A stretch of DNA of 64,000 nucleotides from a virus, in IMG/VR virus record IMGVR_UViG_3300040801_002079, positions 159,837 through 223,836 of that record. One strand, written 5' to 3'. Of the stretch, positions 1 to 48,235 are shown piece by piece. A program made the translations under genes and the position numbers. The notes under the pieces were generated by a model. It saw only the letters and a program-made list of their open reading frames with translations. It was not told the origin of the DNA and did not search any database. Positions within the stretch are counted from its first letter, which is position 1; every line of letters starts with the position of its first letter.

Positions 1-7
1 GAACAAT

Positions 8-580
8 ATGGATTTACATGAATTTAATAAAAATGCAATAAAAACAGAGTCTTTAGTCGATACTGTAATTACAGATAGAGCTATTTTAATGGAATCTTTG
101 GTTGCCTTTGAGCAGGTATCAGAATTATTGGATGCATTAAAAAAGAGTGCTTTTTATAATAAACCAATAGATGTTGAGAAGCTTATGGGTTCAGCCGATT
201 CAATCAATAAAATTGGATATGTACTCTCAAATGAAGACATATGGGAAATAGGGGCGACAAAAAATGACGATATTAACCCTCGTTTATTCCATGCCATAAT
301 TGGAATTTTAACTGAAGCGGGTGAACTTGCAACAATATTGATAAATCACTTGCAGGGCGAAGAATTGGATACAGTCAACATGCTAGAAGAATTTGGCGAC
401 ATTGCATGGTATCAAGCAATCGCATATGATGAATTGAATGTTGATCCATACCATCCACTGGTAGCAGTGATTAACAAACTAAGGGCTAGATACCCAAACA
501 AGTTTACTTCAGATGATGCTATAAATCGTGATGTAGACAGTGAGCGGGCTATACTTGAGGATTCCTTAAAGGGTGAATAA
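8..580 (+). CDS. MazG-like nucleotide pyrophosphohydrolase
   Basis: A 190-residue protein whose second half has the all-alpha NTP pyrophosphohydrolase signature: EAGEL at residues 103-107 (ExxE) followed by EEFGD at 127-131 (ExxD), the acidic residues that bind Mg in MazG and PRA-PH enzymes. The tail (RYPNKFT...AINRD, about 161-174) is typical of phage members. Such enzymes hydrolyse NTPs or dNTPs, and phage versions are thought to adjust nucleotide or alarmone pools. The ATG at 8 lies at the window edge, so a start further upstream cannot be excluded. It begins a same-strand run of nucleotide-related genes. The family call is firm; the substrate is unknown. Confidence 0.75.
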   Translation: MDLHEFNKNAIKTESLVDTVITDRAILMESLVAFEQVSELLDALKKSAFYNKPIDVEKLMGSADSINKIGYVLSNEDIWEIGATKNDDINPRLFHAIIGILTEAGELATILINHLQGEELDTVNMLEEFGDIAWYQAIAYDELNVDPYHPLVAVINKLRARYPNKFTSDDAINRDVDSERAILEDSLKGE

Positions 581-581
581 A

Positions 582-1208
582 ATGAGACCAGTATGTTTAG
601 TAGATTTAGATGACACATTGGGTGATTTAAAAAATCCAATGATGAAAGCTCTTAATCGATCAACCGGAAAGGACATTCATTGGTCGGAGTGGTACACATA
701 CAATGTTCCAACATTATATGATATATCCGATGATGCATTTATGGACATATTGATTAATGAGCATGTTATTGAGAATTTAGAGATACATCAATCAAGTTAT
801 AAATTTCTGAATGATTTGCACTTATTGGGGTATTATACAGTATTGATAACCGCAAGAGGGTGGCACCCAAGAGGAAAAGAAATAACCGAAGAATGGGTCA
901 GTGATTATAATTTGGATATTGATGAACTTATCGTGGTTGAACATGATCAAAGTAAAACGGATGTAATTTCCGGGTTTAATAATATTGTATTTTCGATTGA
1001 TGATAGAATAAAACATTGTCGAGAATACATGAGAACTGGGCGCATTCAACATGTTTTGGTATATGATGCCCCATGGAATACACATATGACGAAACACAAC
1101 CCATTCGTGGGCGGGGATGATTATCATCAAAGAATTTTTGATCTACATGAAATTATAGAGCACGTTGAATGGTGCGATAATAAAAGGAGAGTTTCAAATG
1201 TTTGCTAA
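582..1208 (+). CDS. HAD-family 5'(3')-deoxyribonucleotidase-like protein
   Basis: The N-terminus carries the HAD catalytic motif DLDDTL (DxDxT), with the aspartates as nucleophile and acid/base. A motif II-like LITARG (about residues 89-94) and a late acidic segment, SIDDR, complete a HAD phosphatase core. Length (208 aa) fits the NT5C-type nucleotidases common in phages, which dephosphorylate nucleoside monophosphates. I chose the ATG at 582, which has AAAGGGTG upstream and follows the previous stop by one base; a GTG at 573 would overlap the previous gene. The end overlaps the next gene by 11 nt, indicating coupled translation. Confidence 0.7.
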   Translation: MRPVCLVDLDDTLGDLKNPMMKALNRSTGKDIHWSEWYTYNVPTLYDISDDAFMDILINEHVIENLEIHQSSYKFLNDLHLLGYYTVLITARGWHPRGKEITEEWVSDYNLDIDELIVVEHDQSKTDVISGFNNIVFSIDDRIKHCREYMRTGRIQHVLVYDAPWNTHMTKHNPFVGGDDYHQRIFDLHEIIEHVEWCDNKRRVSNVC

Positions 1209-1491
1209 GTTTGCAGATAAAACAAAAGTTGAAAAGTTATTGGAAAAAGATGCTACATTGGTAGATATGAGGTCTCCCGTTGCGTTTAGGAACGGATCAA
1301 TTGAGGGATCAGTTAACCTGCCCCTCAAGAATTTTTTAAATCGTCTTCCCGGACTTGACAAGAATAAGGGATTGATCTTATTCAGTGACGCAAAGAACCA
1401 CCCCGATGTGACTTCAGCAATTAATTATGCTGCGCAGCTTGGGTTTTCCAATATTTTTGTTTCTGAATATAATACGTTAAAGGACAAATAA
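1198..1491 (+). CDS. Rhodanese-like domain protein lacking the catalytic cysteine
   Basis: This 97-residue protein is a single rhodanese fold: LVDMRSPVAF (the R of the conserved D-x-R), then GSIEGSVNLPL matching the usual G-H-I-x-G-A-x-N-x-P segment, then a beta-strand LILFSD. In active rhodaneses that strand is followed by the Cys loop (CxxGxR). Here the loop is SDAKNHPD with no cysteine, so sulfur transfer is unlikely and a binding or regulatory role is more plausible. The ATG at 1198 follows AGGAGAG by 6 nt. It overlaps the previous gene by 11 nt and the next by 1 nt (TAATG). Confidence 0.65.
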   Translation: MFAKFADKTKVEKLLEKDATLVDMRSPVAFRNGSIEGSVNLPLKNFLNRLPGLDKNKGLILFSDAKNHPDVTSAINYAAQLGFSNIFVSEYNTLKDK

Positions 1492-2075
1492 TGACTCTAG
1501 GTGAACCTGATCAGTGCATTTGTGGTAGAACCGTTTCAGGGTTCAGTACGTGCCCTGTTCACGGTGATAAATGGTTTGGGACGGGTACCCCAAATGAAAA
1601 CAATGATAATAAGCCATTTCCAGCGTTATACTATTTAATCCCCGAAGGGGACTATTGTTATAGACGGACAGGTAGAGTTGTTATAGATAACCGTGTATGG
1701 GATGATGATGAATACAAATATGTTTCATACTATTTTAAGCCTGAAACAAAACTCTGCTCATTCTGGAAATCCATAGGTGATGGGAATGCTCTTTGCACTT
1801 ACATGAATGAAATAAGCTATCAGAGTGAATGCAATAATCTGGTATGGGATCAAGTAAAGGAATGTGGGGTTCGTGTGGCAGACTACAGTTTAGACGAACT
1901 TGAGCACATGAGGGACAATGATCCAGATTGGTACAAGGCCACAAAACGCCAAAAGAAATTTCCACAATTTATGGAAAGTCTTGTTACTATCCTAATGGAC
2001 TCAGAAACAAATGAACTGACTTATGATGGAATTACTTACACCCTAAGTCAGCACATTTATGATAGTGGCAATTAA
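1491..2075 (+). CDS. Hypothetical protein with an N-terminal CxC/CPxH cluster
   Basis: I do not recognise this 194-residue protein. The N-terminus has C9-x-C11 and C21-P-V-H24, which could bind one zinc ion; the rest is soluble and rich in Asp, Tyr and Trp. Its ATG overlaps the stop of the rhodanese-like gene (TAATG), so the two are translationally coupled. It converges with phoH, the 3' ends overlapping by 4 nt. Confidence 0.6.
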   Translation: MTLGEPDQCICGRTVSGFSTCPVHGDKWFGTGTPNENNDNKPFPALYYLIPEGDYCYRRTGRVVIDNRVWDDDEYKYVSYYFKPETKLCSFWKSIGDGNALCTYMNEISYQSECNNLVWDQVKECGVRVADYSLDELEHMRDNDPDWYKATKRQKKFPQFMESLVTILMDSETNELTYDGITYTLSQHIYDSGN

Positions 2076-2824
2076 GCTGTTACTCCCGCTTCTTCCAGTG
2101 CACAAATCCAAGATTTAACAAAGGCGCTTCTAACAATGTCATCGGGCCTGAACGTAACTTGGTCAAACCCTTCCATACGTTCAACAACATTTAGAAACTC
2201 TCTCATACCAGACTGATCATTCTTTTTACGATAAAGATCGGTCTGAATCTGATCACCAATTATGATTAACTTGGAATTTGCACCAACTCTGGTTATGACT
2301 GAGTTAATTTCATAGAAAGTCATATTTTGAACTTCGTCAATTATTATAACAGCGTCATCCCATGTTAGACCTCTTACAAATGATGTAGGAACAAACTTGA
2401 CAATTTTTTGTTTCTTCATTTTTTCGTATGCGGTTGGTCTGCCGAATAGGTCAGAGAATATGTCATTATATGGGGTCTCGTAGACCTCCATTTTTTCAGC
2501 GTCATCACCGGGGAGGAATCCTATGTCCCTAGAGGCTACTGCGCTTCGGACAATTATCATGTTGTCCTGTTTTGATTTCTTTGATAGGACATCTGTTAAT
2601 CCCAGATAAATTGCTGCGTAGGTTTTTCCTGTTCCTGCTGAGCCGTTTGCTAAAATGTTATTACCGTAAAAGTAAGATTCAAACATTTGGTGTTGAGGGG
2701 TGTTTATTGGTTTTATTGATTTTAAATCATTTATTGTTAGGCGTTTTGATTCTTTGAAATCTTGAAGTGCCTGTACGTCATTTTCTATAACTTTCATAGT
2801 GCATCGCTTTGACTTTCTACTCAT
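2072..2824 (-). CDS. phoH: PhoH-like P-loop ATPase
   Basis: A 250-residue PhoH-domain protein. Walker A is GSAGTGKT (residues 61-68) and Walker B is VIIIDEVQNM (D163, E164), followed by the family's IGDxxQ segment (IGDQIQTDL). PhoH proteins are predicted RNA-helicase-like ATPases tied to phosphate starvation in bacteria and are widespread in marine phages; their role in infection is unresolved. The ATG at 2824 has AAAGGAAA upstream. A long leader contains a TATAAATA element at 3030-3037 and an imperfect inverted repeat at 2926-3001. It is the only minus-strand gene in the first 10 kb. Confidence 0.85.
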   Translation of the reverse strand: MSRKSKRCTMKVIENDVQALQDFKESKRLTINDLKSIKPINTPQHQMFESYFYGNNILANGSAGTGKTYAAIYLGLTDVLSKKSKQDNMIIVRSAVASRDIGFLPGDDAEKMEVYETPYNDIFSDLFGRPTAYEKMKKQKIVKFVPTSFVRGLTWDDAVIIIDEVQNMTFYEINSVITRVGANSKLIIIGDQIQTDLYRKKNDQSGMREFLNVVERMEGFDQVTFRPDDIVRSAFVKSWICALEEAGVTA

Positions 2825-2925
2825 GTTTAAGTATTTCCTTTAGTAGTTGGTTTAAAAATAAAAGTGCTTAAAGTGTTACTTTGGACTAAACATGTTTCGA
2901 TATCCTACCTCCTTTAGATAAAAAA

Positions 2926-3001
2926 ATGGGATGAGTCATGTACGGCATCATTCTAAACTAAATATGTTGTAAATGATTTTGTAATGTTGACTACATCCCA
3001 T
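2926..3001 (-). other. Imperfect inverted repeat / possible structured leader RNA
   Basis: ATGGGATG-A-GTCA at 2926-2938 pairs with TGAC-TA-CATCCCAT at 2988-3001: 12 pairs with a small internal bulge. Inside the roughly 49-nt loop, ATCATT (2947-2952) can pair with AATGAT (2972-2977). It lies in the 238-bp divergent region between phoH (minus) and an unknown gene (plus). Transcription of phoH from the TATAAATA at 3030-3037 would place it in the mRNA leader. The function is not known. Confidence 0.4.
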
Positions 3002-3029
3002 CGGTTGTTTTTGTTCATATCTTATGATA

Positions 3030-3037
3030 TATTTATA
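3030..3037 (-). promoter_or_regulatory. T4-type late promoter element TATAAATA
   Basis: An exact TATAAATA on the minus strand, about 205 nt upstream of phoH. It matches the -10-like T4 late promoter consensus. The long distance to the gene makes it less certain than the other copies. Confidence 0.4.
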
Positions 3038-3062
3038 GTTAACTTTGGAGTAATTTTAAAAA

Positions 3063-3266
3063 ATGACACAAGTATATGTTTATAATGGAAAAGAAGTTTT
3101 TTTAACGGGAAGAACTGCTAAAAAGAGTAGCAGAAGAGGCGACAAAGTATTGCATGAGATTCTTCCTAAGAGGTATATGAACAAAGAAATTGACTCATTT
3201 ATTGAATCCGATTGGGTGTTTTTAAAGGACCTCTATGCTATAGTCGAAAATTCAGAAGATAAATAA
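3063..3266 (+). CDS. Hypothetical small protein
   Basis: A 67-residue protein, not recognised, with a basic stretch near residues 17-28 (RTAKKSSRRGDK). The ATG at 3063 has GGAG about 14 nt upstream, rather far. It is the first gene of a plus-strand run leading to the Acb1 homologue. Confidence 0.55.
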   Translation: MTQVYVYNGKEVFLTGRTAKKSSRRGDKVLHEILPKRYMNKEIDSFIESDWVFLKDLYAIVENSEDK

Positions 3267-3286
3267 GCTTAAACGAGGTTAATATA

Positions 3287-3619
3287 ATGAAAACAATAAA
3301 CGAAAGAGCCGATATTATATCAAACACTTTTCAGAATAAAGCACTTAGCTTTCTTAAAGGAATGGAAGAACGAATGGGGAATGATTTGATTTATTCTCTA
3401 GCTCTTGAAGCTGGAAATGTTTTTCTCTGCGTTGCTGCACACCCATCAATGACACCAAAACGCTGGGACACAGAGCGGGAACGTATTCTGTTCTTAATTG
3501 ATGAAGAGGAATATGGAATGGATCAAGATGAACTTATTGAGGTTCTCTCTGAGCGCCTAGAAGATCATATGTATTATGTCACTGCGGGACCCGAAGAAAA
3601 TGAAACTGAGACATCTTAA
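3287..3619 (+). CDS. Hypothetical protein
   Basis: A 110-residue mainly helical, acidic protein that I cannot assign. The start at 3287 has CGAGGTT about 8 nt upstream. Its last 20 nt overlap the start region of the Acb1-like gene in another frame, implying co-translation with an anti-defence gene. Confidence 0.6.
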   Translation: MKTINERADIISNTFQNKALSFLKGMEERMGNDLIYSLALEAGNVFLCVAAHPSMTPKRWDTERERILFLIDEEEYGMDQDELIEVLSERLEDHMYYVTAGPEENETETS

Positions 3620-4193
3620 GCCCGTACCACAAACCGACTATGATCCGCGTGATCCAATTGGAACAGTGTATACATTTAGACATCCCGATGGTATGCGTGG
3701 CACCGTAACTGTATTAGAAAAAATTGAAGATGAAGCCTCAGGGGTATTTGTCGGAGTGAAGTTTTCCGAGGAAACCAATGATGCCATAATGAATTTTATT
3801 GAATCTCAGGATATCCCAAATCCTGTAACAAAAGATAAACTACATTGTACTGTTATGTACACATATAGTGATGCCCCTGATTTAATTGAAGAAAGTAGAC
3901 CCCCTCTTATCCCCGCATGGAATGCTACACCGGATAAATTTGAAATATTTGAAACACAGGATGATAATAATTGCTTGGTTTTAAGAATAAAATGTGATGA
4001 ACTAACCGAAAGGCATGAGAAAATCATAGCGGATTACGGAGTTGTTTATACGCACGAGGAATACAAGCCACATATAACATTATCATATGATTGTGGAGAT
4101 TTCGATATTTCAACGTTGGACAAAGATGCGTTACCTGATGAAATCCTTATAACAGAGGAGTATGCATCATCGATTGATCCAGACTGGGTATAG
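3600..4193 (+). CDS. acb1: Acb1-like anti-CBASS 2H phosphoesterase
   Basis: The protein contains both HxT motifs of the 2H phosphoesterase fold: HCT at residues 82-84 (KLHCTVMYT) and HIT at 158-160 (YKPHITLSYD). The surrounding pattern (GVKF..., IPNPVTKDKLH, PHITLSYD, then a C-terminal EEY...DW) matches T4 gp57B/Acb1, which cleaves the cyclic oligonucleotide signals of CBASS immunity. A roughly 45-residue N-terminal extension (GTVYTFRHPDG...) precedes the catalytic domain and is not part of T4 Acb1 as I remember it. The start is uncertain: ATG 3600 is chosen, but an in-frame ATG at 3576 also exists. A 2',5' RNA ligase-type activity is the alternative reading. Confidence 0.75.
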   Translation: MKLRHLKPVPQTDYDPRDPIGTVYTFRHPDGMRGTVTVLEKIEDEASGVFVGVKFSEETNDAIMNFIESQDIPNPVTKDKLHCTVMYTYSDAPDLIEESRPPLIPAWNATPDKFEIFETQDDNNCLVLRIKCDELTERHEKIIADYGVVYTHEEYKPHITLSYDCGDFDISTLDKDALPDEILITEEYASSIDPDWV

Positions 4194-4204
4194 TGATAAA
4201 TAAG

Positions 4205-4494
4205 TATAACATTGTACGATCCATTTAAGGATTTATTGTGGACGGCGGTTCGATTCCGCCCATTTCCACCAAAAGCATACCTAATGGGTATATTTTATGA
4301 TGGGAATGCACTGGTTTCGACATGGTAAGTTGGTAAATGAGGACAATGCGGCAACCGTGAAAGTCGTTAGGGTAAAACCAAAGAAGCAAAAAACTAAATG
4401 CAAACGATAGCATATATGATCAGGCCCTTGCCGCTTGATCGTGGGTTTAGCCAACCTTGAACCAGAACGGGTTAGGGGGGAGTAATCCCCCCGA
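4205..4494 (+). ncRNA. ssrA: Circularly permuted two-piece tmRNA (tag ANDSIYDQALAA)
   Basis: The acceptor piece comes first. Its T arm is GGCGG-TTCGATT-CCGCC (4244-4260), followed by acceptor strand CATTTCC (4261-4267), A and an encoded CCA (4269-4271). After a spacer of about 30 nt the coding piece starts with GGGAATG (4302-4308), which pairs with CATTTCC and includes the G3-U70 pair that specifies alanine. A second helix joins ATTTATTGTG (4231-4240) with CATGGTAAGT (4321-4330). The reading frame 4400-4438 encodes ANDSIYDQALAA-stop, a normal ssrA tag ending ALAA. Stems near 4453-4473 and a G6/C6 hairpin at 4475-4492 close it. tmRNA rescues stalled ribosomes and tags their products for proteolysis. 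A GATAAATA element lies at 4195-4202. Confidence 0.93.
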
Positions 4495-4515
4495 ATTTTA
4501 TCAAAAGGGACTTCT

Positions 4516-5271
4516 ATGAATCACGCAAAAAATGATGAGACTTACAACGATAACAATAATAACAATGAACAGCCTCTTTTTCCATTTTTACCTAACAGGG
4601 AACAAATAAGGTCCTTTAAAAGAACCATCCCAGTAGCGGTCTATGACTTCTACATTACTGATGAAATAAAAGAACCAGATGTGTACATGGAGTTAATTCA
4701 AACTCTTAAAAGTGCTGATCCTCAGGATACAATTTTCATCTATTTAAATACTCCGGGCGGGAGCCTCTATACTACCATTCAGATAATGTCGGCAATCACT
4801 AGCTCACAGGCAAAGGTCATAACATGCCTTGAAGGGCAGGCATGTTCTGCTGGAACATTCATTTTCTTAGCGGGAGACACTAAAATAGTTAATCCCCACT
4901 GTACGTTCATGGTTCATAATTATAGCCAAGGAGCAAGTGGTAAGGGTAACGAAATTGTATCCCATGTTAATTACATGGATCGATATTTTAAAAGACTAGC
5001 TGAAGATGTATACACTGAGTTTTTAACCAAAACTGAGTTGGAATCCGTTATTAAGGGTGATGACATGTGGATGGATTCACACGAACTGGTGAAAAGATTA
5101 GATGCCAACAACCATGACTACATCTACACGGGCCAAGATTTGGATGAAATATTAGGCAGAGACCCTGATGAGATTTCAGATGAAATGGAAGATGCTTCTA
5201 AGCCCAAACAAAGGGCAAAAAAGAAAGTAACTAAGAAAAAAGCTTCGAGGAAAAAAACCGCGTCTGATTAA
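4516..5271 (+). CDS. clpP: ClpP-like serine protease with Lys-rich tail
   Basis: The 251-residue protein has the ClpP core: oxyanion segment NTPGGS (78-83), nucleophile S111 in QACSAGTF, H134 in FMVHNY, and a candidate third residue D187 (DMWMDSHE). The first 28 residues are an Asn-rich extension. The last 25 are an H1-like basic tail with repeated K-K-x-x-K, which ordinary ClpP lacks. ClpP forms a barrel protease working with an unfoldase. Immediately downstream of the tmRNA, it could degrade tagged proteins. ClpP-type enzymes can also serve as prohead proteases, but the head genes are 40 kb away. AAAAGGGA precedes the ATG. Confidence 0.85.
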   Translation: MNHAKNDETYNDNNNNNEQPLFPFLPNREQIRSFKRTIPVAVYDFYITDEIKEPDVYMELIQTLKSADPQDTIFIYLNTPGGSLYTTIQIMSAITSSQAKVITCLEGQACSAGTFIFLAGDTKIVNPHCTFMVHNYSQGASGKGNEIVSHVNYMDRYFKRLAEDVYTEFLTKTELESVIKGDDMWMDSHELVKRLDANNHDYIYTGQDLDEILGRDPDEISDEMEDASKPKQRAKKKVTKKKASRKKTASD

Positions 5272-5273
5272 TA

Positions 5274-5303
5274 TTGACCCACCCATCTTCAATGTGATAT
5301 AAT
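5274..5303 (+). promoter_or_regulatory. Sigma70-type promoter for primase, nearly leaderless
   Basis: TTGACC (5274-5279), an 18-nt spacer and TATAAT (5298-5303). The expected start of transcription about 7 nt downstream coincides with the ATG at 5310, and no Shine-Dalgarno sequence lies between, so the transcript would be leaderless. Confidence 0.55.
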
Positions 5304-5309
5304 TTCAAA

Positions 5310-6320
5310 ATGAATTATGAGTGCATTGAAGATGTAGTCAGAGAGCATGTTGCATTTAAAAATGTGTCAGCATCTGGCTGGAACCAAGCATATTGTGAAT
5401 ATTGTGGCGATGGCGGGAGAACCAAGGGTCCCCGTGGTAATTGGCTATTTGATGGTGATATGCTATTCTTCAATTGCTATAATTGTGGAACCAAAGCAAA
5501 TTTTGATCCTCACAGGGAGATACCATTTAGTAAGCACATGCATGGTGTCTTCAAGGCTCACGGAATCCCATTAAAGTTCTGTTATGCGTTAATCCCCAAA
5601 GATGCTAATGCCGAAACTAGGGAAGTTAAGCCTCAAAAACTTAAATTTGATTCATTTGAATTACCGGATCATTTTTATAAACTATCAAGTGCAGCAATGG
5701 ATGACAAAAAAGCAATCATTGCTCGTGAACATTTAATAAACAAACGTAAAATTGATCCGGACGATTTCCCGTTTTATCTATCAAGCGGAGTTACACAATC
5801 ATCTAGCCCTAAAGATATAAGTTTGGCTAAGACATTTCAGCAAAGACTTATAATTCCATCATATGTCAATGATACATTAATTGGGTATGAGGGAATGGCC
5901 CTATATCCAAATAAAAACAAATATATAACAATTGGTTCTAATTTGGTACACGGCTATTCTAATATTTTCAGGGAAGAGGGGCATGTGCCACTGTTTGTAA
6001 CTGAAGGATTTTTTGATTCATATCATGTAAATGGAGTCGCATTGTGTACAAACTCCTTAAGTAATAAGCATATAGAGCTTCTGGAAAAGACATCTAGGCC
6101 CAAGGTTGTTATACCGGATAGGAAGAATACACATAACGCTTTAGCTGAAGAGGCACTTAATCTTGGATGGGGCGTGTCGCTACCCGAAATAAAGCCATAT
6201 AAGGATATTTCAGAGGCAATTGAGCACTATGGTGTATTTTTCGTATTAAATTCGGTTATGAAATCCATAAAATACGGGGATAGTGGAAAAATTTATTTAA
6301 AAATATATAATGTTGCATAA
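5310..6320 (+). CDS. 61: DNA primase (T4 gp61-like)
   Basis: A 336-residue primase. A zinc ribbon with C29, C32, C56 and C59 lies at the N-terminus and would read template DNA. A TOPRIM core follows, with the conserved acidic segment FVTEGFFDSYH (about 229-239) and the metal-binding VVIPD (266-270). The length matches T4 gp61, which makes RNA primers for lagging-strand synthesis with the gp41 helicase, also encoded in this window (36437-37834). It sits apart from the other replication genes, directly after clpP, with its own sigma70-like promoter. Confidence 0.85.
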   Translation: MNYECIEDVVREHVAFKNVSASGWNQAYCEYCGDGGRTKGPRGNWLFDGDMLFFNCYNCGTKANFDPHREIPFSKHMHGVFKAHGIPLKFCYALIPKDANAETREVKPQKLKFDSFELPDHFYKLSSAAMDDKKAIIAREHLINKRKIDPDDFPFYLSSGVTQSSSPKDISLAKTFQQRLIIPSYVNDTLIGYEGMALYPNKNKYITIGSNLVHGYSNIFREEGHVPLFVTEGFFDSYHVNGVALCTNSLSNKHIELLEKTSRPKVVIPDRKNTHNALAEEALNLGWGVSLPEIKPYKDISEAIEHYGVFFVLNSVMKSIKYGDSGKIYLKIYNVA

Positions 6321-6357
6321 ATAAGTTTGTAAATCTCATTTTTTTATGGAGTATAAT

Positions 6358-6537
6358 ATGGATCACATGGAAGTTGTTGACACCCAAGAAAAAGCAATCG
6401 AAGCTGCTGCTAGAGAGCTTTTTAAACTGACCATTTTAGCCGAAGAAGAGCGTATCTCTAAAATTGAGATTAATAACAGCGCTGATTTTTCATTTAGACG
6501 CGAATATTTTCAAAAGGCTATACAAAATTTGTTATAA
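6358..6537 (+). CDS. Hypothetical small protein
   Basis: A 59-residue helical protein with no recognised family. The ATG at 6358 is preferred over the one at 6346 because the GGAG inside the first codons (6348-6351) is well spaced for it. It abuts the next small gene. Confidence 0.55.
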   Translation: MDHMEVVDTQEKAIEAAARELFKLTILAEEERISKIEINNSADFSFRREYFQKAIQNLL

Positions 6538-6732
6538 ATGCACTCGAAGGCGTACAAGTTTTCAAAAAAATCTTCTGTTGACTTTATAGTTGAGTTCCGC
6601 ACATCGGATAATCCCCATAATTTTTTTCGCAAATACAACATTGTTTATAATAATGATGGGTCAGTATACGATTTGGACTTGAAACAATCATTCAAATGCA
6701 TATATAATTGGGCTGAAGCTATAGCTGTATAA
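6538..6732 (+). CDS. Hypothetical small protein
   Basis: A 64-residue protein, not recognised, starting directly after the preceding TAA with no intergenic base. It probably depends on translational coupling, since no clear Shine-Dalgarno sequence is present. Confidence 0.5.
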   Translation: MHSKAYKFSKKSSVDFIVEFRTSDNPHNFFRKYNIVYNNDGSVYDLDLKQSFKCIYNWAEAIAV

Positions 6733-6744
6733 TTGTGAGGAACA

Positions 6745-7077
6745 ATGAAAAAAGAAAACGCATTAGAAAGTGTATCTATCGACAAGCCCTATATAAATGG
6801 GTTGATTGAAATATATGGGGTTATCGGCGCAATTCATGCAATGAGAGAAAGGTTTACCGGGGATATGAATGAAAAAATACCCGATAGATTTTTAAGAATA
6901 ATGGTATGGCAATTAACACACTCCATTGAGGGGCTTGAGGAAGAGGCTAATATGACCTTTGAAAGTATTGCAGATATTGCTCACTTTGGTCAAGTCACTG
7001 AAATCTATACGTTGCGCACAATGTGCAACCATATTTTGGGTGGAGCCGACAATCTAAAAGAATATGTGAAATCTTAG
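6745..7077 (+). CDS. Hypothetical protein
   Basis: A 110-residue mostly helical protein without recognised motifs. TGAGGAA lies 3-9 nt before the ATG. The last gene before the adhesin region; an AATAAATACC element follows at about 7089. Confidence 0.55.
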   Translation: MKKENALESVSIDKPYINGLIEIYGVIGAIHAMRERFTGDMNEKIPDRFLRIMVWQLTHSIEGLEEEANMTFESIADIAHFGQVTEIYTLRTMCNHILGGADNLKEYVKS

Positions 7078-7121
7078 TTTAAAGTTCTAATAAATACCTA
7101 AAACAAAGGTCACATATTTAA

Positions 7122-8711
7122 ATGAAATTAGAATTTAGACAGGGCTTAGTCCAAATACAATCTACACCACCATTTATAACTACATCGGGCGGCAGTGTAA
7201 GTCTAAATTCGTCTGTAACCGATAATATTGTAACATTTGCACACGGTGAAGATAATTACCTTTTTATAGAATCTAATGATCTTCCCGGTGCATGGACGGG
7301 TCCATTCGGGGCTGGAACAACGTGGCTCTATTGGAATCTGGATATAGAGACTGGAGTAAGAACCTTCGGAAGTACCACTCTTGACCCAACTGGATATGGA
7401 GATGATATGCCATCCAGTCCAGTAATGGGTGAAATGTTCTTTTCAACATTAGAAAATAAAATGAAGGAATGGAATGGTTATAAATGGGTAACCGTTCTGC
7501 GTGTACTTGCAGGGGAAATAACTGGGGGAACATTAACGCCATATAGCGAAGGATCACAAATCTCAGATGATTTTCAAGCATATGCAGGATATTTGCTTTT
7601 TGATGAAAATGGAAATCCATTTAAAGAATCTGATCCATTTAATCGTGGTCATTTTGTACATACTGAGACAAGGCTTAAAGCACAAAATACACCACTCAAT
7701 CAATACGAGCAAAGAAATACCGAATATTCATATACATCGGATACATCAATACCTGAGGGTTATTGTGTAGCACTGATAGAAGACAAAACTCTAACCGTTG
7801 CATCATATAGAAAGCCTGAAAGACCATGTATTGGAATATCATTAATGGACTTATATGCTGGTGATATGGGCAGGTATGTGACGGAGGGGGTGCTGACCTT
7901 TGAGGGCTGGAATTTTGATTCCGTACCTAATACCCCTGTTTGGGTTGGACCAAATGGAGAAGTTACCACCACTGTACCAACCGAAACTTCAATTCAGAGG
8001 TTAGGGTTTGTGGTTTCAAAAAACAGTATACTATTGGATATAAGAGAGCCGGTTTTACTAGACCCATCTTATAAGGACTGCTTTGTTCCATCACCAACTC
8101 CAACTCCAACTCCAACTGTTACACCAACCATTACTGCAACCGTTACACCCACGGCGACAGTTACACCAACTGTTACAGCTACGGCATCTGTTACACCAAC
8201 TGTTACCCCAACTACTACAGTTGATCCAACAGTAACACCAACTGTTACAGCCGCTATTACACCAACACCAACAGTAACACCAACAGTTACCCCAACTATG
8301 ACGGTAACGCCTGAAGTTAGCCCATCACCAACAACAACTCCTGCTCCATCTGCTGAGGCCACACCAACCCCAACTGTTACTTCAGGATTAACTCCAACTG
8401 TTACTCCAACTTCTACAGTTACACCAACAATTACTTCAACTGCGGAAGTAACACCAACCCCAACAGCTACGACTGGTCTAACACCAACAGTTACACCAGA
8501 GGTTACACCAACGAATACGGTAACACCTCCCGTTACACCAACAGTTACTCCATCTTTATCTGTTGGGGCATCCCCCACACCTACTCCAACGGTTACACCA
8601 ACGAACACGGCAACAACTACACCTACCCCAACAGTTACGCCGACAATGACAGTAACCCCAACTCCTTCCCCATTAAGCGGATTGAAGACACTCTTTATTG
8701 ACTGGACATAA
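7122..8711 (+). CDS. Fibre-like virion protein with long Pro/Thr repeat tail
   Basis: The 529-residue protein has a beta-rich N-terminal part (about 1-320). It includes MGEMFFSTLENKMKEWNGYKW, the (label)-(W/F)-x-G-x-W pattern of fibre proteins, and a distal segment of the type seen before the ends of tail proteins (SIQRLGFVVSKNSILLDI, about 288-305). From about residue 323 to 515 it is an almost uninterrupted PTPTVTPT-type low-complexity tract, then a short hydrophobic end. The tract is probably an extended rod or linker and is a candidate for O-glycosylation. The same tract type occurs in the adjacent protease and in four fibre genes on the other strand. Confidence 0.6.
   Translation: MKLEFRQGLVQIQSTPPFITTSGGSVSLNSSVTDNIVTFAHGEDNYLFIESNDLPGAWTGPFGAGTTWLYWNLDIETGVRTFGSTTLDPTGYGDDMPSSPVMGEMFFSTLENKMKEWNGYKWVTVLRVLAGEITGGTLTPYSEGSQISDDFQAYAGYLLFDENGNPFKESDPFNRGHFVHTETRLKAQNTPLNQYEQRNTEYSYTSDTSIPEGYCVALIEDKTLTVASYRKPERPCIGISLMDLYAGDMGRYVTEGVLTFEGWNFDSVPNTPVWVGPNGEVTTTVPTETSIQRLGFVVSKNSILLDIREPVLLDPSYKDCFVPSPTPTPTPTVTPTITATVTPTATVTPTVTATASVTPTVTPTTTVDPTVTPTVTAAITPTPTVTPTVTPTMTVTPEVSPSPTTTPAPSAEATPTPTVTSGLTPTVTPTSTVTPTITSTAEVTPTPTATTGLTPTVTPEVTPTNTVTPPVTPTVTPSLSVGASPTPTPTVTPTNTATTTPTPTVTPTMTVTPTPSPLSGLKTLFIDWT
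8088..8676 (+). repeat. Low-complexity Pro/Thr codon repeat
   Basis: Degenerate repeats of CCAACAGTTACACC-like units encode the PTPTVTPT tract. Related tracts lie on the minus strand at about 13795-13945, 15175-15350, 16680-16830 and 18060-18425. Such shared DNA could allow recombination between fibre genes. Antisense reading gives long spurious Val/Gly frames. Confidence 0.8.
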
Positions 8712-8714
8712 GAC

Positions 8715-10097
8715 ATGGAAATTACTAGCAATATTAAAAACAAAATAGAAGAAATTTATAAAGATTCTAATTATAATGTTAGAACCGTTAGCTTAGGACG
8801 CAAAAAGGTTGGAGATGAAAAAACGGATGAAATTGCCATTGTCATTCGAGTAGAAAAGAAAAAACCTTTAAGTGAATTGAGCGCAGACGAAATTGTTCCA
8901 AAAACAATAACTATAGATGGACAAGATTTTAAGACTGATGTTATCGAAGACCCTAGTGAAATTACAGCAATAGCCTGCTTTACTTCAACTGATCCTGACG
9001 TTTTAAAGTTGCAGGGTGACCCAGCGCTTCTTACTCCTCTTAAGGGTGGACAAGAACTTACACAATTCCCAACAGGGTGGACAGACTTTGGTGGCGGAAG
9101 CTATGGATTCACTGTGGGAACATTGGGATTCATCGGAGTAGATGACATTGATGGAAAAATTGTCGGTGTGACCAATAATCATGTAGTAATTGGGAACGGA
9201 GATATAAATGGAGACAGGGATATACCGACAGAGGTTGCATCCCCATATAATATTATTGAACCTATAGAATGGGTGGTTGATAGCTCATCGTATGCTCCCG
9301 GAGCATTACTACGTGATGAAAGTGCCCCCGGAACATTTGTAGATGGCGCACCAAATATCAAGAGATATATTCCATTTGATGTAGATGGAACAAACTATGT
9401 GGATGTTGCGCTTCTGATTATGGACCCAACGAAGGTTGACAACACATCATATCAAATACACCAACCAACAGGGGAGACAGCATATACGGATTATTTGCCA
9501 TTTGCAAGCACCGCAGAGATCGATAGTTTACTAGCTACTCCCAGAACAATATACAGTACAGGAAGAACTACGGGACCAAAGGGGTGGGGAGTAAGTGCTT
9601 CATGTACATTAGAAATAACAGCATTAGCTGAAACCATTAGTGTTAGTGGGTTATCCGATACAAACTTAACCTTTTCAGATGTTGTGCGATTTGAGTTTAC
9701 TGATGGCAGTAATTATCCAATCGATAGTGGAGATTCTGGATCAGCCGTTGTTGCAGATTTTGATGGAACTAGAAAAATAGTAGGGTTAGCATTTGCAGGA
9801 AGCCTAACAGCAGGATTCTTCTGTAGAATTGATCGAATAGCTGATGCTATAAAAATACGCCAGTGGGATGAGCACTATGTTTACGATGATACTGTTCCAG
9901 CAGGGGCCACACTTAAAGCTGCACCCATTGAGGATTCATCAGCGGATAGTGTAACTGTTACTCCTGAATGTAAATATCTATTCCAAGCTGGAACATCAAT
10001 GACAGATACATATGATGATCTATTAGCTATAACTCCACTAGCGTGTTCAGTTACGCCAACTGTTACACCCGAAGTAACACCAACCCCATCTGGTTAG
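8715..10097 (+). CDS. Trypsin-like serine protease with Pro/Thr tail
   Basis: The 460-residue protein has a full chymotrypsin-type triad: H156 in GVTNNHVV, D230 in YVDVALL and S341 in DSGDSGSAV. The N-terminal segment (VEKKKPLSEL, then TPLKGGQ and GTLGFIG) resembles a family of bacterial S1-like proteases that I recognise only by pattern. It ends [15 protein letters not shown], the same Pro/Thr unit as the fibre gene 3 nt upstream, suggesting it is a virion or fibre-associated enzyme. Possible roles are processing of fibres or digestion of host surface proteins. Complete trypsin-like proteases are unusual in T4-like phages. No signal peptide is seen. Confidence 0.8.
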   Translation: MEITSNIKNKIEEIYKDSNYNVRTVSLGRKKVGDEKTDEIAIVIRVEKKKPLSELSADEIVPKTITIDGQDFKTDVIEDPSEITAIACFTSTDPDVLKLQGDPALLTPLKGGQELTQFPTGWTDFGGGSYGFTVGTLGFIGVDDIDGKIVGVTNNHVVIGNGDINGDRDIPTEVASPYNIIEPIEWVVDSSSYAPGALLRDESAPGTFVDGAPNIKRYIPFDVDGTNYVDVALLIMDPTKVDNTSYQIHQPTGETAYTDYLPFASTAEIDSLLATPRTIYSTGRTTGPKGWGVSASCTLEITALAETISVSGLSDTNLTFSDVVRFEFTDGSNYPIDSGDSGSAVVADFDGTRKIVGLAFAGSLTAGFFCRIDRIADAIKIRQWDEHYVYDDTVPAGATLKAAPIEDSSADSVTVTPECKYLFQAGTSMTDTYDDLLAITPLACSVTPTVTPEVTPTPSG

Positions 10098-10123
10098 GTG
10101 TTGACATAACTAAAAATATTTTT

Positions 10124-10131
10124 TATAAATA
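10124..10131 (+). promoter_or_regulatory. T4-type late promoter element TATAAATA
   Basis: Exact TATAAATA ending 8 nt before the ATG at 10140. With T4 spacing the transcript would start at or next to the start codon, and no Shine-Dalgarno sequence is present. Confidence 0.55.
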
Positions 10132-10139
10132 ATAGCATA

Positions 10140-10583
10140 ATGAAAAAAATAAGTAAAAAATATCCCTTAATTGTTGAATCACACCCCGATGATTATAATG
10201 GATACGAGTTCATAACTCTAATTCGCTATAATGATATCAACCATTTGACCATTGTTGATAATACGGATAAGAAATTCATTAACTGCTATGTGCTGGACCT
10301 GTGTAAAACGGTTAATCTAGAAGAAGAAAGAATAATAGATGTTACTCAAGAATGGTACAACACATCTAAAGATGCATATCCAATATCAATAGAGTTCTCC
10401 AAGCTTGGAATGACAGATGATGTGTCTAAGATTTTAAGAAGCTTCTCCATCGATTTTGTTACACGAGTTATCGGACCTCTTCCACATTTCAGTATGAAAG
10501 GTGTAACTAAAGTTAGAAAGAGAAAGCGTAAAGATGTGCCTGAGGGAATTCGTATTGTACAAAAGAAGCTTAAAGATTATTAA
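10140..10583 (+). CDS. Conserved phage hypothetical protein
   Basis: A 147-residue protein resembling, from memory, unassigned proteins in marine T4-like phages (pattern ESHPDDY-GYEFITLIRYND, IVDN, YPISIEFS). The C-terminus is basic (TKVRKRKRKD). TATAAATA sits immediately upstream, suggesting late expression. It converges with the minus-strand fibre operon, overlapping by 14 nt. Confidence 0.55.
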   Translation: MKKISKKYPLIVESHPDDYNGYEFITLIRYNDINHLTIVDNTDKKFINCYVLDLCKTVNLEEERIIDVTQEWYNTSKDAYPISIEFSKLGMTDDVSKILRSFSIDFVTRVIGPLPHFSMKGVTKVRKRKRKDVPEGIRIVQKKLKDY

Positions 10584-10944
10584 GCTTTGATAAAAGTCTG
10601 AAGGATTCTTTTACATCCTGATTATTAAACGTCTGAGCAACCCGCTTGGATGCTTCCAGAACTTCATTTCCCTCTTCCGAAAGCTCTCCTGTTTCATCAA
10701 CCAAATTATGGTACTCAAGCATCTCCTTACCTCGTGTAGTTAATTCTAAGGCGTTTTCGGTTGATCTTAGGGCACCAAGCTTCAATAATGTGTTTCTGGC
10801 AACAGAGAGGTTCTCGGAGGCCACAGTGTTCTCATATGCAACCTCTGGTGTGGGAGATACCTGAACTATGACCAACACCGCTTTCTGTGTATCATTTAAT
10901 ATAGCAGTGTTAGGATTAATTAATTCTTTAAGTAGTGTTTTCAT
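10570..10944 (-). CDS. Hypothetical protein with winged-helix-like pattern
   Basis: The 124-residue sequence has the helix-helix-wing pattern of a small transcription-factor fold: LSVARNTLLKLGALRSTENALELTTRGKEML reads like recognition helix plus wing, though I cannot assign a family. The ATG at 10944 lies within the last codons of the upstream gene (17-nt overlap); an in-frame TTG lies at 10956. It is the last gene of the minus-strand fibre operon. Confidence 0.5.
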   Translation of the reverse strand: MKTLLKELINPNTAILNDTQKAVLVIVQVSPTPEVAYENTVASENLSVARNTLLKLGALRSTENALELTTRGKEMLEYHNLVDETGELSEEGNEVLEASKRVAQTFNNQDVKESFRLLSKLNNL

Positions 10945-11503
10945 TCTGTTGCCCAATCAAGTGTAACTGTAGAACAATAAGTAATGAGTAAGGTATCGTA
11001 TGAGACTTACGCATATCACTATTTATCCGCTTAGTGTATAATTCTGGGCGAATAGCTTCCGGGTTCTCTAAATATTTTTCCAGCAGGCCAATCTTTCCGG
11101 GCCTAATTAATGCTAGAATGTCTGATAATTGCTGAACACTTCGGGGCTTCACTTTCTCCACAATGTCAAAATGTTTACCAATATGGAATAACCCGCTAAC
11201 AATTTTTTCACTTTCAAGTAGTGTCCAATCCGGCTCTTGCTTCAAAAGTGCCCGCATTTGAGCCTTACTCTTAAACTCTTTCAAGAGATTAAGATGTAGT
11301 AAATCAATCTTCAAGAAACCAACATCCTCAGCCTCTTTATAGGGTATGGCAGATAATTTAGTTTCGGGGTCTACAGGAATTTGCTGAAAATAAACACCAG
11401 CAGGGTGTTTTCTCAGTTTACCATCTTCGTTCATTGAGGCATAAACTAAATCAAAAACATCACTGGGATTAAAATCCGGGCGTAGATCGATATCAATGTC
11501 CAT
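10928..11503 (-). CDS. PolIII-alpha (DnaE)-like protein, C-terminal half of split pair
   Basis: The 191-residue protein opens with MDIDIDLRPD, equivalent to the catalytic PDxDxDF strand of bacterial C-family polymerases. It continues in the DnaE order: KHPAGVYFQ (the K-H-A-G-G-V segment), GFLKIDLLHLNLL (G-x-x-K-x-D-F-L-G-L), LFHIGKHFDIVEKVKPRSVQQL (F-Q-L-E-S...L-x-P), LALIRPG (A-L-x-R-P-G) and KSHTIPYSLLIVLQ (K-S-H-A-x-A-Y). It lacks PHP, OB and tau-binding domains. The matching N-terminal half is encoded at 23221-23805. Whether the pair polymerises DNA is unknown. It overlaps the chaperone gene by 11 nt. Confidence 0.75.
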   Translation of the reverse strand: MDIDIDLRPDFNPSDVFDLVYASMNEDGKLRKHPAGVYFQQIPVDPETKLSAIPYKEAEDVGFLKIDLLHLNLLKEFKSKAQMRALLKQEPDWTLLESEKIVSGLFHIGKHFDIVEKVKPRSVQQLSDILALIRPGKIGLLEKYLENPEAIRPELYTKRINSDMRKSHTIPYSLLIVLQLHLIGQQNENTT

Positions 11504-12233
11504 AATTCATTTCTATTTCTCGTTTTGTAACTATTAAATCTTCAACGCTTTCACAAAAGTTTATCTTACTTTCATAATGTAGCATATTATACTCTTCCTG
11601 TAAAGCGAAGTTGTATTGCTGATCCTTCATGTCAAGTAAGTAAATAATAGTGTCATTGATGTTAAAGTTTTTTAACCTCATAGTCAATTCGAAAAATGGA
11701 AATTTAGAAATATCTATATCTGTTATAGGATTAAGAGATGATATCAATCCTCTCAATTGATTCATATTCATGTCTTCGATATAAAAATCATCATCTAATC
11801 TGCTTAGCGTGATCGCTATAATGTCCAAAGCCTCTTGATATTTTTCTTCCAGATTTGGAGAAAATCTAAAACTTATTCTTTCATTGTAATACTCGACAAG
11901 CTTTTGATGTAAGAATTGTTTTCCTGATTCAACATCCTTTAAAGACATATTAGATGAATAGTCTATTAATATAAGACCACGTTCTTCTTCTAATTTATTA
12001 AGCTTTTCCTTATATTCTGAAATATTCTCAACAGAAAATCTATCAAGATTGCGCAAAGACTCTCTCCAATTGACCCATTGATTGCGAGATTGTGATGTAA
12101 GAGGGACATCCTGTAGTTGTGTCCAGTCACTTTCCAATAGGAGTCTGTTGCGTCTAGCAATAAGGCTGACCCATTTTATTTCTTCTTGATTTTTTGACTG
12201 CGAATATTTTAAATTCTTTATCTTTTTTATCAT
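11493..12233 (-). CDS. Tail-fibre assembly chaperone-like protein
   Basis: The first 70 residues hold the pattern of phage tail-fibre assembly proteins: RNRLLLESDWTQLQDVPLT followed by NQWVNWRESLRNL (about 28-62). The remaining two thirds are helical with no assigned family. It lies directly downstream of four fibre genes in the same operon, the usual position of such chaperones. No strong Shine-Dalgarno sequence is seen before the ATG at 12233. Confidence 0.6.
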   Translation of the reverse strand: MIKKIKNLKYSQSKNQEEIKWVSLIARRNRLLLESDWTQLQDVPLTSQSRNQWVNWRESLRNLDRFSVENISEYKEKLNKLEEERGLILIDYSSNMSLKDVESGKQFLHQKLVEYYNERISFRFSPNLEEKYQEALDIIAITLSRLDDDFYIEDMNMNQLRGLISSLNPITDIDISKFPFFELTMRLKNFNINDTIIYLLDMKDQQYNFALQEEYNMLHYESKINFCESVEDLIVTKREIEMNYGH

Positions 12234-12246
12234 GTCAAGGTCTACA

Positions 12247-14547
12247 TTATGCTGGCTTAAAGAAGAAATATACCGTGGCCCGTGTTAGGGTTGCATCGTA
12301 TGTTGTCCAAACCGCAGGGAATGAAAGATTTGATGATCCGTAACTAGTCACTATACTCTGATTTATATAGTTAGTGTTCTCAGCTTCATTATAATAAACC
12401 CTATAAAATGTTCGCAAATAATTGACCACATATCCATCAGGAACATTTATATCAAATCCAGTTACATCTCCGTCATTGCCATCAATATCACTCGTTATAG
12501 ATAAAGAGAACTTTTCACCGTCAACGAAGGTCGTGGTCCTACTTCCAAACGAACTGGTTCCTCCGGTTTGTCTAATATCTGCACTTAACGTAAATGATCT
12601 TTCTGGAGTCGGCGTTGGGGAAGGGCCATCTGGTGGTGGGGTTCCATCTATGTTCCAACAGAATTGATTTAAATAATTACATATGTTTTTGCCTTCCATC
12701 CATCTAGTAGCAAAATCACCTGAAAATGAATCATTATGTATTATCTGAACCGCGCCATCTGGTAACAACGCCGCACTATCGAATGTTACATCATTCATAC
12801 TGAAGGTTCTAGTTCCCAAATTACAATTTCCGCTTCCATCAGAAACTCCTATATTTGTATACCCCATTGGTTGAGTTGAAGACTCACCAATCATTGCTAA
12901 TAACTGATTTCCTGTAATTCCCACGGGTTCAAATATAAAGAGCCATTTTCTTCCGGGTCCACCAATTTCTTGTAGATATAACCCAGCTTTACATATAGCA
13001 TATTCCGATGTAGTTCTAGACATAGAACCAAAATTATCATTATAATTATTATATCCAACTACTCTTGTCGCGTTAGAGAAAATTTGCCCAGCCGGAACGG
13101 TGTCGCCTTCGGCTGGTGTTATAACGGAGCAACTTCCTGTAACAGGAGCATCATCTACTCCATCATGATCCCAGCTTGAGTACCAATATGTCAATGTTCC
13201 GGGCGATGAAGGGAATGGCCCCTCAGTCCCCGGATTTGTTAAGTTTGTTCCACCCGCAGCACATCCACCAACATATCCAACCGAACTAATATCAGATGAT
13301 CCGGGTATCCACCATTGTCGGGTATTGCCAACACTATCAGTGAGAATAACTCTACCGTGGAATCTTACGGTCATGCTATAATTATTTTCAGTATTAAATT
13401 CCGCGCTATCAAATTTCAAACGAATATATGGTATTTCTCCGGGGGATATATTTGTACGCAATGATCCAGTTCCGTCTCCACCGAAATAACTCTTTAAGAC
13501 TGTGCTGAGGGGATATGCCGACCCCTGATAGTACGTGCCTCCACTTCCAACCTCAACTAAGCCAGAGGGATCACTTGTGGGAGATTGAATAGTGGCGAAT
13601 ACATTTTGGAAATCAACAGTGTAAGGTGGGACCCCACCACTAATGTTTTGTAATGAAAAATATGTACTCTGATCATATGCACTTTTTGCAACATTACCCT
13701 CAGTATCGATGTGTGATGTGTTCGTTCCGCCTCCGGGTCCGGGAGTTCCGGGATCACATGGTGCGGGAGATACATAGAGTCGCGTATCGACTCCTAATGG
13801 CTCTACTGGCTCGGGAGTATCGGTTGGAGTCGGTGATACCGGAGGTGAGGGGGGAGGCGTTCCTGCGGGGCTGCTAGTTGGTGTGACTGTAATTCCCACT
13901 GGAGGGGTTGGGGTTGGAGTAACCTCTGGTAAATCTGGGGGAGTAACCTGTTGCCCCAGATTGTTATTGCCGCGTATTCCTATAATTAAATAGTTTACGT
14001 AAGATTCAATAGTAGTGGTATCTCCTAACACCTTATAGTGCATGGTTACTCTTGCTTCAGAGTCAGTACCACAAGTCATTCCAGAAAATCCGGAATTATA
14101 TGCTGCGGGTGCTACTGACCATATACATTCAGAGTATTCAAACTCTCGGCCCGTTACAGGGCTAATGGGTTTAGGCAATTGCTGACCATGATATACTGTT
14201 CCCCAGTTTGCTGCAACATCATCGTAACTTGATATTGGAATCCAATATGTTCCATCCCAAAAATATAGCACACCAGATGTTGAGTTATACCAAAACTGTC
14301 CATGGGTTGGGTTAACAAGCAAATTCTCATGACTTTGCGATGTGTCGGGTGTTCCGGGAACAGATGGGTTTTCAGGGCAAGCAAAATTTTCTAGCAAGTG
14401 TAATAGATTTTCATTAAGATATTCACCATATTCTAGATTTATTCTTCCAAACATAGCAACATCAACAGAGGTTCTATTAACATCACCCTGTTTAACTTCT
14501 ATTGGACTAGCACTAACTTGTGTAAAATCTATTTTATATGTTGACAT
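12247..14547 (-). CDS. Tail-fibre/adhesin paralogue 1
   Basis: The 766-residue protein starts with a domain shared by all four tandem paralogues: an (A/L)FGR-x-x-x-YGE segment, NENLLHLLENFACP, then GQFWYNSTSG-x-LY-x-WDGT-x-W and a C-rich stretch (about 1-200). A Pro/Thr/Ser linker follows (about 205-250). Next is an Ig/SprB-like domain with GGVPPYTVDF (about 305-430), shared with paralogues 2 and 3, and then unique C-terminal beta domains. The N-terminal domain probably attaches to the virion and the variable end contacts the receptor. It is the longest of the four and follows a GATAAATA element at about 14570. Confidence 0.7.
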   Translation of the reverse strand: MSTYKIDFTQVSASPIEVKQGDVNRTSVDVAMFGRINLEYGEYLNENLLHLLENFACPENPSVPGTPDTSQSHENLLVNPTHGQFWYNSTSGVLYFWDGTYWIPISSYDDVAANWGTVYHGQQLPKPISPVTGREFEYSECIWSVAPAAYNSGFSGMTCGTDSEARVTMHYKVLGDTTTIESYVNYLIIGIRGNNNLGQQVTPPDLPEVTPTPTPPVGITVTPTSSPAGTPPPSPPVSPTPTDTPEPVEPLGVDTRLYVSPAPCDPGTPGPGGGTNTSHIDTEGNVAKSAYDQSTYFSLQNISGGVPPYTVDFQNVFATIQSPTSDPSGLVEVGSGGTYYQGSAYPLSTVLKSYFGGDGTGSLRTNISPGEIPYIRLKFDSAEFNTENNYSMTVRFHGRVILTDSVGNTRQWWIPGSSDISSVGYVGGCAAGGTNLTNPGTEGPFPSSPGTLTYWYSSWDHDGVDDAPVTGSCSVITPAEGDTVPAGQIFSNATRVVGYNNYNDNFGSMSRTTSEYAICKAGLYLQEIGGPGRKWLFIFEPVGITGNQLLAMIGESSTQPMGYTNIGVSDGSGNCNLGTRTFSMNDVTFDSAALLPDGAVQIIHNDSFSGDFATRWMEGKNICNYLNQFCWNIDGTPPPDGPSPTPTPERSFTLSADIRQTGGTSSFGSRTTTFVDGEKFSLSITSDIDGNDGDVTGFDINVPDGYVVNYLRTFYRVYYNEAENTNYINQSIVTSYGSSNLSFPAVWTTYDATLTRATVYFFFKPA

Positions 14548-14577
14548 CTATTATTCCCAATTATCTGTATTTATCCA

Positions 14578-15948: not shown

Positions 15949-15966
15949 TCGATCCTCACCTTATAC

Positions 15967-17517: not shown

Positions 17518-17690
17518 TATACTTCCTCATAACTGTCAATCTTTGAATGTATCATGTCGGATTTAAATTCGCCGTCTGATATCTCAAAGACTTCAATTCC
17601 CGAATCTGCTGAATTTTGCGCCGATACCCGCTTTTGTGCAGTTCCTATAATAACTTGTTCTCCATCGATTTCTTTAACCAATAAAAACAT
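17517..17690 (-). CDS. Small coupled protein between fibre genes
   Basis: An open frame of 57 codons starting [13 protein letters not shown] and ending DSYEEV. Both ends are TAATG overlaps: its ATG overlaps the stop of paralogue 4, and its stop overlaps the ATG of paralogue 3. The tight coupling on both sides supports a real gene. Acidic, with no recognised family. Confidence 0.6.
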   Translation of the reverse strand: MFLLVKEIDGEQVIIGTAQKRVSAQNSADSGIEVFEISDGEFKSDMIHSKIDSYEEV

Positions 17691-19057: not shown

Positions 19058-19114
19058 AGTTTATCCCAAATATAATATTTCCCTAGTATTTATTATTTAT
19101 GCGATTCAGGATAA

Positions 19115-19783
19115 CTATAAATCTAACTGAGACAAGTAATTTTTGACCTCATTAATTGATCCTTTATTAACATCAAGTATTAATTGCCACTTATCTAAGT
19201 TTATAACAGACTCTATTAATTTCTGCTCTTCATAGTTGGTTTCATTCCTAACATATTCGTGAAATTTTTTACTCAATAATAATGCCCAAGGGGATAAGTT
19301 TCTAGACTGTATCAGTTTTATCAAATCCTGTGGCTTCAAATGAGAATAAACCTCAGATATTTTACACCCAAATGCAGAAGATAACCTCTCCATTGTTGTC
19401 AATGTTATGCGCAGATGAACCTTAGCGTCATTCTCTTTATCAAACTGGTTTATAAAGTATGAGTAGATATCATCATTGTACCAATGCTGTGGGAGTATTG
19501 AATCCTTTGCCATTAGTTCAATATACAACGACACATCCGGAATTCCCATTTTTAGTGCGTAGTCTGTAAATGTATAAAATACCTTATAATACTTTGACCC
19601 TATGAAGATTTCTTGAGAAGGATTAGGGAGGTTGCGCTTCTTAAACCATGTTTGGTAGTTTTTATATGCCATCTTTCCACGAGGTGTCTTGAGTTCCCCA
19701 ATACGAGTCTCCTCATCACACTTATGCTTGGTGTAATTTTCTTCTTTAATAAACTTAGTTTTACAATATTCACATTCAAACAT
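19115..19783 (-). CDS. Conserved phage protein with N-terminal C2H2 zinc finger
   Basis: The 222-residue protein begins CEYCKTKF...HKC (C4, C7, H20, C22), a zinc-finger-like motif. The rest (YQTWFKKRNLPNP, LSPWALLLSKKF) matches, from memory, a conserved unassigned family encoded near the clamp-loader genes of marine T4-like phages. A nucleic-acid-binding role is plausible. The start overlaps the upstream gene by 8 nt. Confidence 0.6.
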   Translation of the reverse strand: MFECEYCKTKFIKEENYTKHKCDEETRIGELKTPRGKMAYKNYQTWFKKRNLPNPSQEIFIGSKYYKVFYTFTDYALKMGIPDVSLYIELMAKDSILPQHWYNDDIYSYFINQFDKENDAKVHLRITLTTMERLSSAFGCKISEVYSHLKPQDLIKLIQSRNLSPWALLLSKKFHEYVRNETNYEEQKLIESVINLDKWQLILDVNKGSINEVKNYLSQLDL

Positions 19784-47415: not shown

Positions 47416-47417
47416 TT

Positions 47418-48232: not shown

Positions 48233-48235
48233 TTA

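Follow-up and report, generated by a model that had tools for sequence, protein, structure and literature searches.

The Acb1 enzyme of phage T4 (gp57B) acts on the cyclic di- and trinucleotides of CBASS. In the proteins of T4 and Erwinia phage FBB1, the tetrad formed by two HxT motifs needs no metal and cuts 3′ of adenosine (PMC9117128). Four aromatic residues of T4 Acb1, Y12, W74, F107 and W147, stack on the bases (the role of F107 is given in PMC9117128), and E141 contacts N6 of adenine (PMC9117128). Both T4 gp57B and the protein family PHROG 755 are named 'RNA ligase' in public records. The T4 gene has 57A, ipI and a tRNA cluster as neighbours. Phage-borne tmRNA genes, which also concern us here, were reported in 2021 in about 2% of phage genomes, among them two-piece (permuted) tmRNAs in Melnitz and other marine phages (PMC9004378).

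The locus presented here lies in a 64,000-nucleotide stretch of viral DNA (the window), which is part of a 316.8-kb jumbo-phage record. Its acb1 gene shares with T4 the family, the catalytic tetrad and a probable CBASS-blocking role, at about 30% protein identity, whereas its neighbours are different: a PhoH-like ATPase and an orphan open reading frame (ORF) upstream, and a tmRNA, a ClpP-type protease and a primase downstream (Table 1). The closest gene order is found in the jumbo phages RAS14 and XacN1 and in the IMG/VR contigs L002/L034 and L010: each has an oppositely oriented PhoH gene, then the genes for a small 'YxYxG' protein and Acb1. The window primase is closest to those of XacN1 and the Stenotrophomonas phages RAS14/CM1, and a megablast search of window positions 1–20000 against a phage collection returned no match.

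Table 1. Features of the acb1 locus, in window coordinates.
Feature	Position	Strand	Basis
PhoH-like ATPase, conserved upstream neighbour	2072–2824	−	phrog_170, E 1.3e-77; likewise placed in L002, L010, RAS14 and XacN1
67-aa conserved small protein, syntenic block	3063–3266	+	relatives in RAS14, L019, L020 and L023
110-aa orphan ORF, in the DHFR slot of relatives	3287–3619	+	coding score; Shine-Dalgarno; DHFR position in L002, RAS14 and XacN1
acb1, Acb1-family 2H phosphoesterase	3600–4193	+	197 aa from ATG 3600; PF23474, phrog_755, PDB 7t26
Probable N-terminal extension, 31 aa beyond the start of jumbo-phage relatives	3600–3692	+	family N-termini, codon usage, Shine-Dalgarno, pLDDT
First HxT motif, H82-C-T84 (T4 H44/T46)	3843–3851	+	alignment; H and T in 44/44 relatives
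H152, replacing T4 F107 (base-stacking aromatic)	4053–4055	+	alignment with 44 relatives
Second HxT motif, H158-I-T160 (T4 H113/T115)	4071–4079	+	alignment
C-terminal lid, S190 (T4 E141), W196 kept (T4 W147)	4167–4193	+	alignment
Permuted tmRNA gene core	4210–4438	+	ARAGORN span 4179–4529; Rfam RF04321, 123.3 bits
ClpP-type protease	4516–5271	+	phrog_1827, E 4.3e-59
DNA primase, jumbo myovirus type	5310–6320	+	phrog_47, E 6.3e-22; XacN1 primase, E 3e-71

Profile, structure and catalytic residues all speak strongly for placing the acb1 product in the Acb1 family. The Pfam Acb1 profile PF23474 scores 116.4 bits (E 1.1e-33; profile positions 2–141 of 144), far over its curated cut-off of 27 bits, PHROG 755 is matched at E 1.1e-37, and the best sequence match among solved structures is FBB1 Acb1 (PDB 7t26; E 1.2e-21). 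The original prediction of an Acb1-type enzyme with both HxT motifs in this reading frame is thereby borne out, and so is the closeness in structure that it proposed to examine. The Acb1 domain runs from about residue 47 to the C terminus. An AlphaFold model built from a 45-sequence alignment (mean pLDDT 87, core mostly 88–98) superposes on 7t26 over 137/137 residues (Z 19.8, r.m.s.d. 1.5 Å, TMt 0.88), with 36% identity over the structurally aligned residues. The second-best fold match is the phosphodiesterase of Burkholderia phage BCSR5 (PDB 9q2g and 9q2y, deposited as anti-CBASS protein Acb1; Z 16.5), with only 16–19% identity. No 2H protein of the RNA-ligase or tRNA-splicing type fitted the model better: the best non-Acb1 2H proteins reach Z 12.4, at 3.5–4.4 Å. 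Among bacterial genome contigs, no Acb1 relative was confirmed.

The name of PHROG 755 raises the question of whether this is instead a general 2H enzyme, of the type of LigT or RNA 2′,3′-cyclic phosphodiesterases, whose substrates would be the ends of RNAs or tRNAs rather than CBASS signals. The shared 2H fold (LigT itself gives Z 12.4 at 3.5 Å), the nearby tmRNA gene and the tRNA genes close to acb1 in T4-like relatives would all fit such an enzyme. However, the T4 57B protein that bears the same public annotation is Acb1 itself, and the model is far nearer to Acb1 than to LigT. Moreover, the product scores 22.1 bits against the LigT-type family TIGR02258, where the cut-off is 65.7, and its match to the general 2′-5′ RNA ligase family of Pfam (9e-4) falls under the cut-off of that family. 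We therefore regard a LigT-type function as very improbable.

The protein is thus most likely, with a probability of roughly 85%, a jumbo-phage 2H phosphoesterase of the Acb1 family that cleaves CBASS cyclic di- and trinucleotides as T4 Acb1 does. Family, fold, tetrad and location in a phage come directly from the comparisons made here; cyclic-nucleotide cleavage and an anti-CBASS effect are what we infer for this protein. By the mechanism described for T4 and FBB1 Acb1 (PMC9117128), it would bind the small cyclic di- and trinucleotides that the CBASS cyclases of the host produce. Its two HxT motifs would, with no metal, drive the 2′-OH onto the scissile phosphate, giving a 2′,3′-cyclic phosphate and then a linear product, and CBASS effectors would stay off.

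The catalytic tetrad is intact, as all four of its residues align with those of T4 Acb1. The 2H fold, both HxT motifs, the stacking Phe at position 74 and the lid Trp are features shared with FBB1 Acb1 (PDB 7t26 and 7t27), and three of the four base-stacking positions are still aromatic (F50, F117 and W196). The fourth is not: at the position of T4 F107 (FBB1 Tyr 108), all 44 aligned relatives have F or Y and the window protein alone has His. This absence from the relatives is not explained by the first scan that retrieved them, because its pattern permitted His; the pattern of a later scan would miss it. The pocket is altered elsewhere too. The adenine-contacting Glu (T4 E141, FBB1 Glu 142) is replaced by Ser and T4 D106 by T151. 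The chain stops one residue past the lid Trp, three residues shorter than FBB1 Acb1 at this end, which leaves the lid with a shorter tip than those of T4 and FBB1. Around both H152 and S190 the alignment is ungapped between its anchors. Glu occupies the E141 position in 37 of the 44 relatives and other residues in 7 (Ser in 2 of the 44), so that, judged from the alignment, Glu there appears to be accessory to the family and not what defines it, common without being universal.

With both the Glu that contacts adenine and one of the stacking aromatics replaced, the base preference of the enzyme may be looser or shifted. The changes at F107, E141 and D106, together with the shorter lid and a long terminal branch, mean that its substrate range could have drifted. 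In the Acb1 tree, T4-like proteins form a supported group without the window protein, which is nearest by path mainly to tmRNA-bearing IMG/VR loci, its exact placement not being fixed, and whose end branch is over twice the median (1.06 versus 0.45). The window acb1 is thus a somewhat divergent, fast-evolving new member of a known family. It is conceivable, though unlikely, that the enzyme has a changed preference, in which adenine is not needed or other bases are preferred, and deals with CBASS or related signals on which T4 Acb1 works poorly; this would refine the Acb1 assignment and is compatible with it. The substitutions fall at base-contact positions (roles in PMC9117128), the branch is long, and the His is one that no aligned relative shares even though a scan admitted it. 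Against this, every catalytic residue and three of the four stacking aromatics are kept, and the family tolerates the E141 change alone, since the same Glu is replaced in 7 of 44 relatives.

The acb1 reading frame from ATG 3600 places 47 residues before the conserved Gly48, compared with 9 in T4 and FBB1 and mostly 8–21 in the relatives (a further upstream start, ATG 3576, would give 205 aa). The surplus is about 38 residues relative to T4 and FBB1 Acb1 and about 31 relative to the nearer jumbo-phage proteins, where mostly 10–21 residues come before this Gly. The roughly 45 extra residues originally predicted are therefore about right if ATG 3600 is used and T4 or FBB1 is the reference, and too many by the standard of the jumbo-phage relatives. 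Within the extension, 24 codons (3621–3692) lie outside the overlap with the upstream ORF, and their in-frame codon usage scores 0.387 bits per codon (gene median 0.27; off-frame medians near −0.1). This is at the 80th percentile of true in-frame windows and above at least 99.6% of off-frame windows, and none of 2,000 shuffles scored as high. ATG 3600 is preceded by a modest Shine-Dalgarno sequence (CGGGAC, −4.0, spacer 9). In the model, residues 1–11 are disordered and residues 23–27 and 33–37 form a hairpin of moderate confidence that reaches into the N terminus of the core; as modelled, the extension is a tail and not a recognisable domain.

The extension might instead reflect a mis-called start, with translation from ATG 3693 yielding a 166-aa protein with the usual family N terminus. 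M32 would then sit 16 residues ahead of the conserved Gly, exactly as the start of the L010 protein does and typically for relatives. The extension, moreover, has no homologue: a tblastn search of 50,697 phage records returned nothing better than E 2, and neither the PDB nor the rest of the 316.8-kb record, possibly a fragment, held a relative. One candidate, an L010 match extending to residue 17 of the window protein, was rejected because it crosses a stop codon and lies outside the L010 gene. On the other hand, 3621–3692 is coding-like in the acb1 frame only, no Shine-Dalgarno sequence was found before ATG 3693, and a start there would leave a 73-nt gap where RAS14, L002 and L010 have about 1–31 nt. 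We consider the shorter protein unlikely. Because ATG 3693 has no ribosome site, ATG 3600 has a modest one and 3621–3692 is coding-like, the extension is probably translated, as a lineage-specific tail with a hairpin. RAS14, XacN1, L002/L034 and L010 lack an extension of this type.

The 110-aa ORF ahead of acb1 shares 20 nt with it, confirming the overlap noted in the original prediction. With a strong Shine-Dalgarno sequence (−7.1) and coding-like codon usage (0.337 bits per codon), it looks like a real gene. It gave no significant match to Pfam (best E 0.14), PHROGs, NCBIfam, PADLOC, the PDB (0.27), phages (best E 0.4) or IMG/VR viral contigs, and it has no paralogue. The Pycsar effector PycTM was considered as a relative and rejected, its Pfam E of 0.14 being below threshold; a single-sequence model (pLDDT 50.5) was too poor for use. 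In RAS14, XacN1, L002/L034 and several contigs, though not in L010, the slot before acb1 is held by DHFR, a nucleotide-metabolism gene, and a search of the rest of the 316.8-kb record, which may be a fragment, turned up no DHFR.

It had been suggested that this ORF is a further anti-defence gene. Neither the absence of significant matches in the searched collections nor the DHFR in the slot of relatives bears this out. A pair in which acb1 is coupled to a new counter-defence factor would accord with the 20-nt overlap, which suggests translational coupling, and with an ORF that looks translated. But in compact phage genomes such overlaps are commonplace, and DHFR occupies the slot in several relatives. 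An ORF without relatives anywhere searched shows no recurrence with acb1 or with other anti-defence genes, and the surrounding genes are PhoH, tmRNA, ClpP and primase. An anti-defence pair is, on this evidence, extremely improbable; the gene order around acb1 is a conserved core block and not an anti-defence island.

Downstream of acb1, the permuted tmRNA, ClpP and primase genes follow in that order. The tmRNA scores far above the RF04321 gathering threshold of 47 bits and also matches the beta-proteobacterial tmRNA model. Its 3′ piece comes first, ending in CCA at 4271, and its 5′ piece begins with GGGAATG at 4302; the acceptor arms GGGAATG and CATTTCC pair, and the tag ANDSIYDQALAA is encoded at 4400–4438. 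Like the tmRNA of Melnitz it is phage-borne and permuted; unlike the Melnitz type, it sits next to acb1 and ClpP and fits the beta-proteobacterial model, and Rfam found no riboswitch in the window. The linkage recurs in another 11 distinct phage contigs (L011, L012, L016, L019, L020, L022, L023, L027, L069, L092 and L093), where acb1 is followed, within about 2 kb and in the same orientation, by a permuted tmRNA, and several of these show the complete order DHFR, acb1, tmRNA, ClpP and primase. This linkage is most simply read as common descent of a single block. No tmRNA was found in the searched stretches of RAS14, XacN1, L002/L034 and L010.

Where the tmRNA is absent, tRNA genes often follow acb1, as in T4-like loci (L025, L043, L067, L068 and others) and in L094 (3795–3945), so that acb1 is repeatedly found directly upstream of translation-RNA genes, either tmRNA or tRNA. 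Searches of this record, which may be a fragment, found neither SmpB nor a member of the AAA_2 family (the Clp ATPase partner of ClpP), and the phage tmRNA and ClpP would therefore probably have to use host partners.

A more far-reaching proposal combines the two themes. In it, a rebuilt pocket (His at F107, Ser at E141, Thr at D106, a short lid and the N-terminal hairpin) would cut cyclic nucleotides beyond the range of T4 Acb1, or independently of adenine, and in this group of jumbo phages acb1, tmRNA and ClpP would be a retained unit that jointly counters translation-stalling or nucleotide-signalling defences. We hold this conjunction to be improbable.

Several other features of the window were noted. 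In the block upstream of PhoH, a probable rhodanese-like protein and a HAD/polynucleotide-kinase-like protein are encoded at 1165–1491 and 573–1208, respectively; XacN1 carries 'phage shock protein E' where the window has the probable rhodanese-like protein. Two adjacent genes at 7122–8711 and 8715–10097 encode proteins with T/P/V repeat runs (TPTVTPT...), the 529-aa protein carrying a long internal run and the 460-aa protein a short run at its C terminus; both resemble surface proteins of the virion or adhesion proteins. A minus-strand frame at 8069–8743 is probably open only because of the repeat. Finally, nine tRNA genes are spread over 17 kb of the minus strand (47340–63946).

The Acb1 described here extends the phages that carry this enzyme to a divergent jumbo-phage lineage. 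It differs naturally at two positions that are believed to determine which base is chosen, so that the adenine rule of Acb1 could be tested with a sequence found in nature. The recurring order of acb1, permuted tmRNA, ClpP and primase offers, in turn, a way into the question of why lytic phages should carry a tmRNA at all, and one that can be tested.
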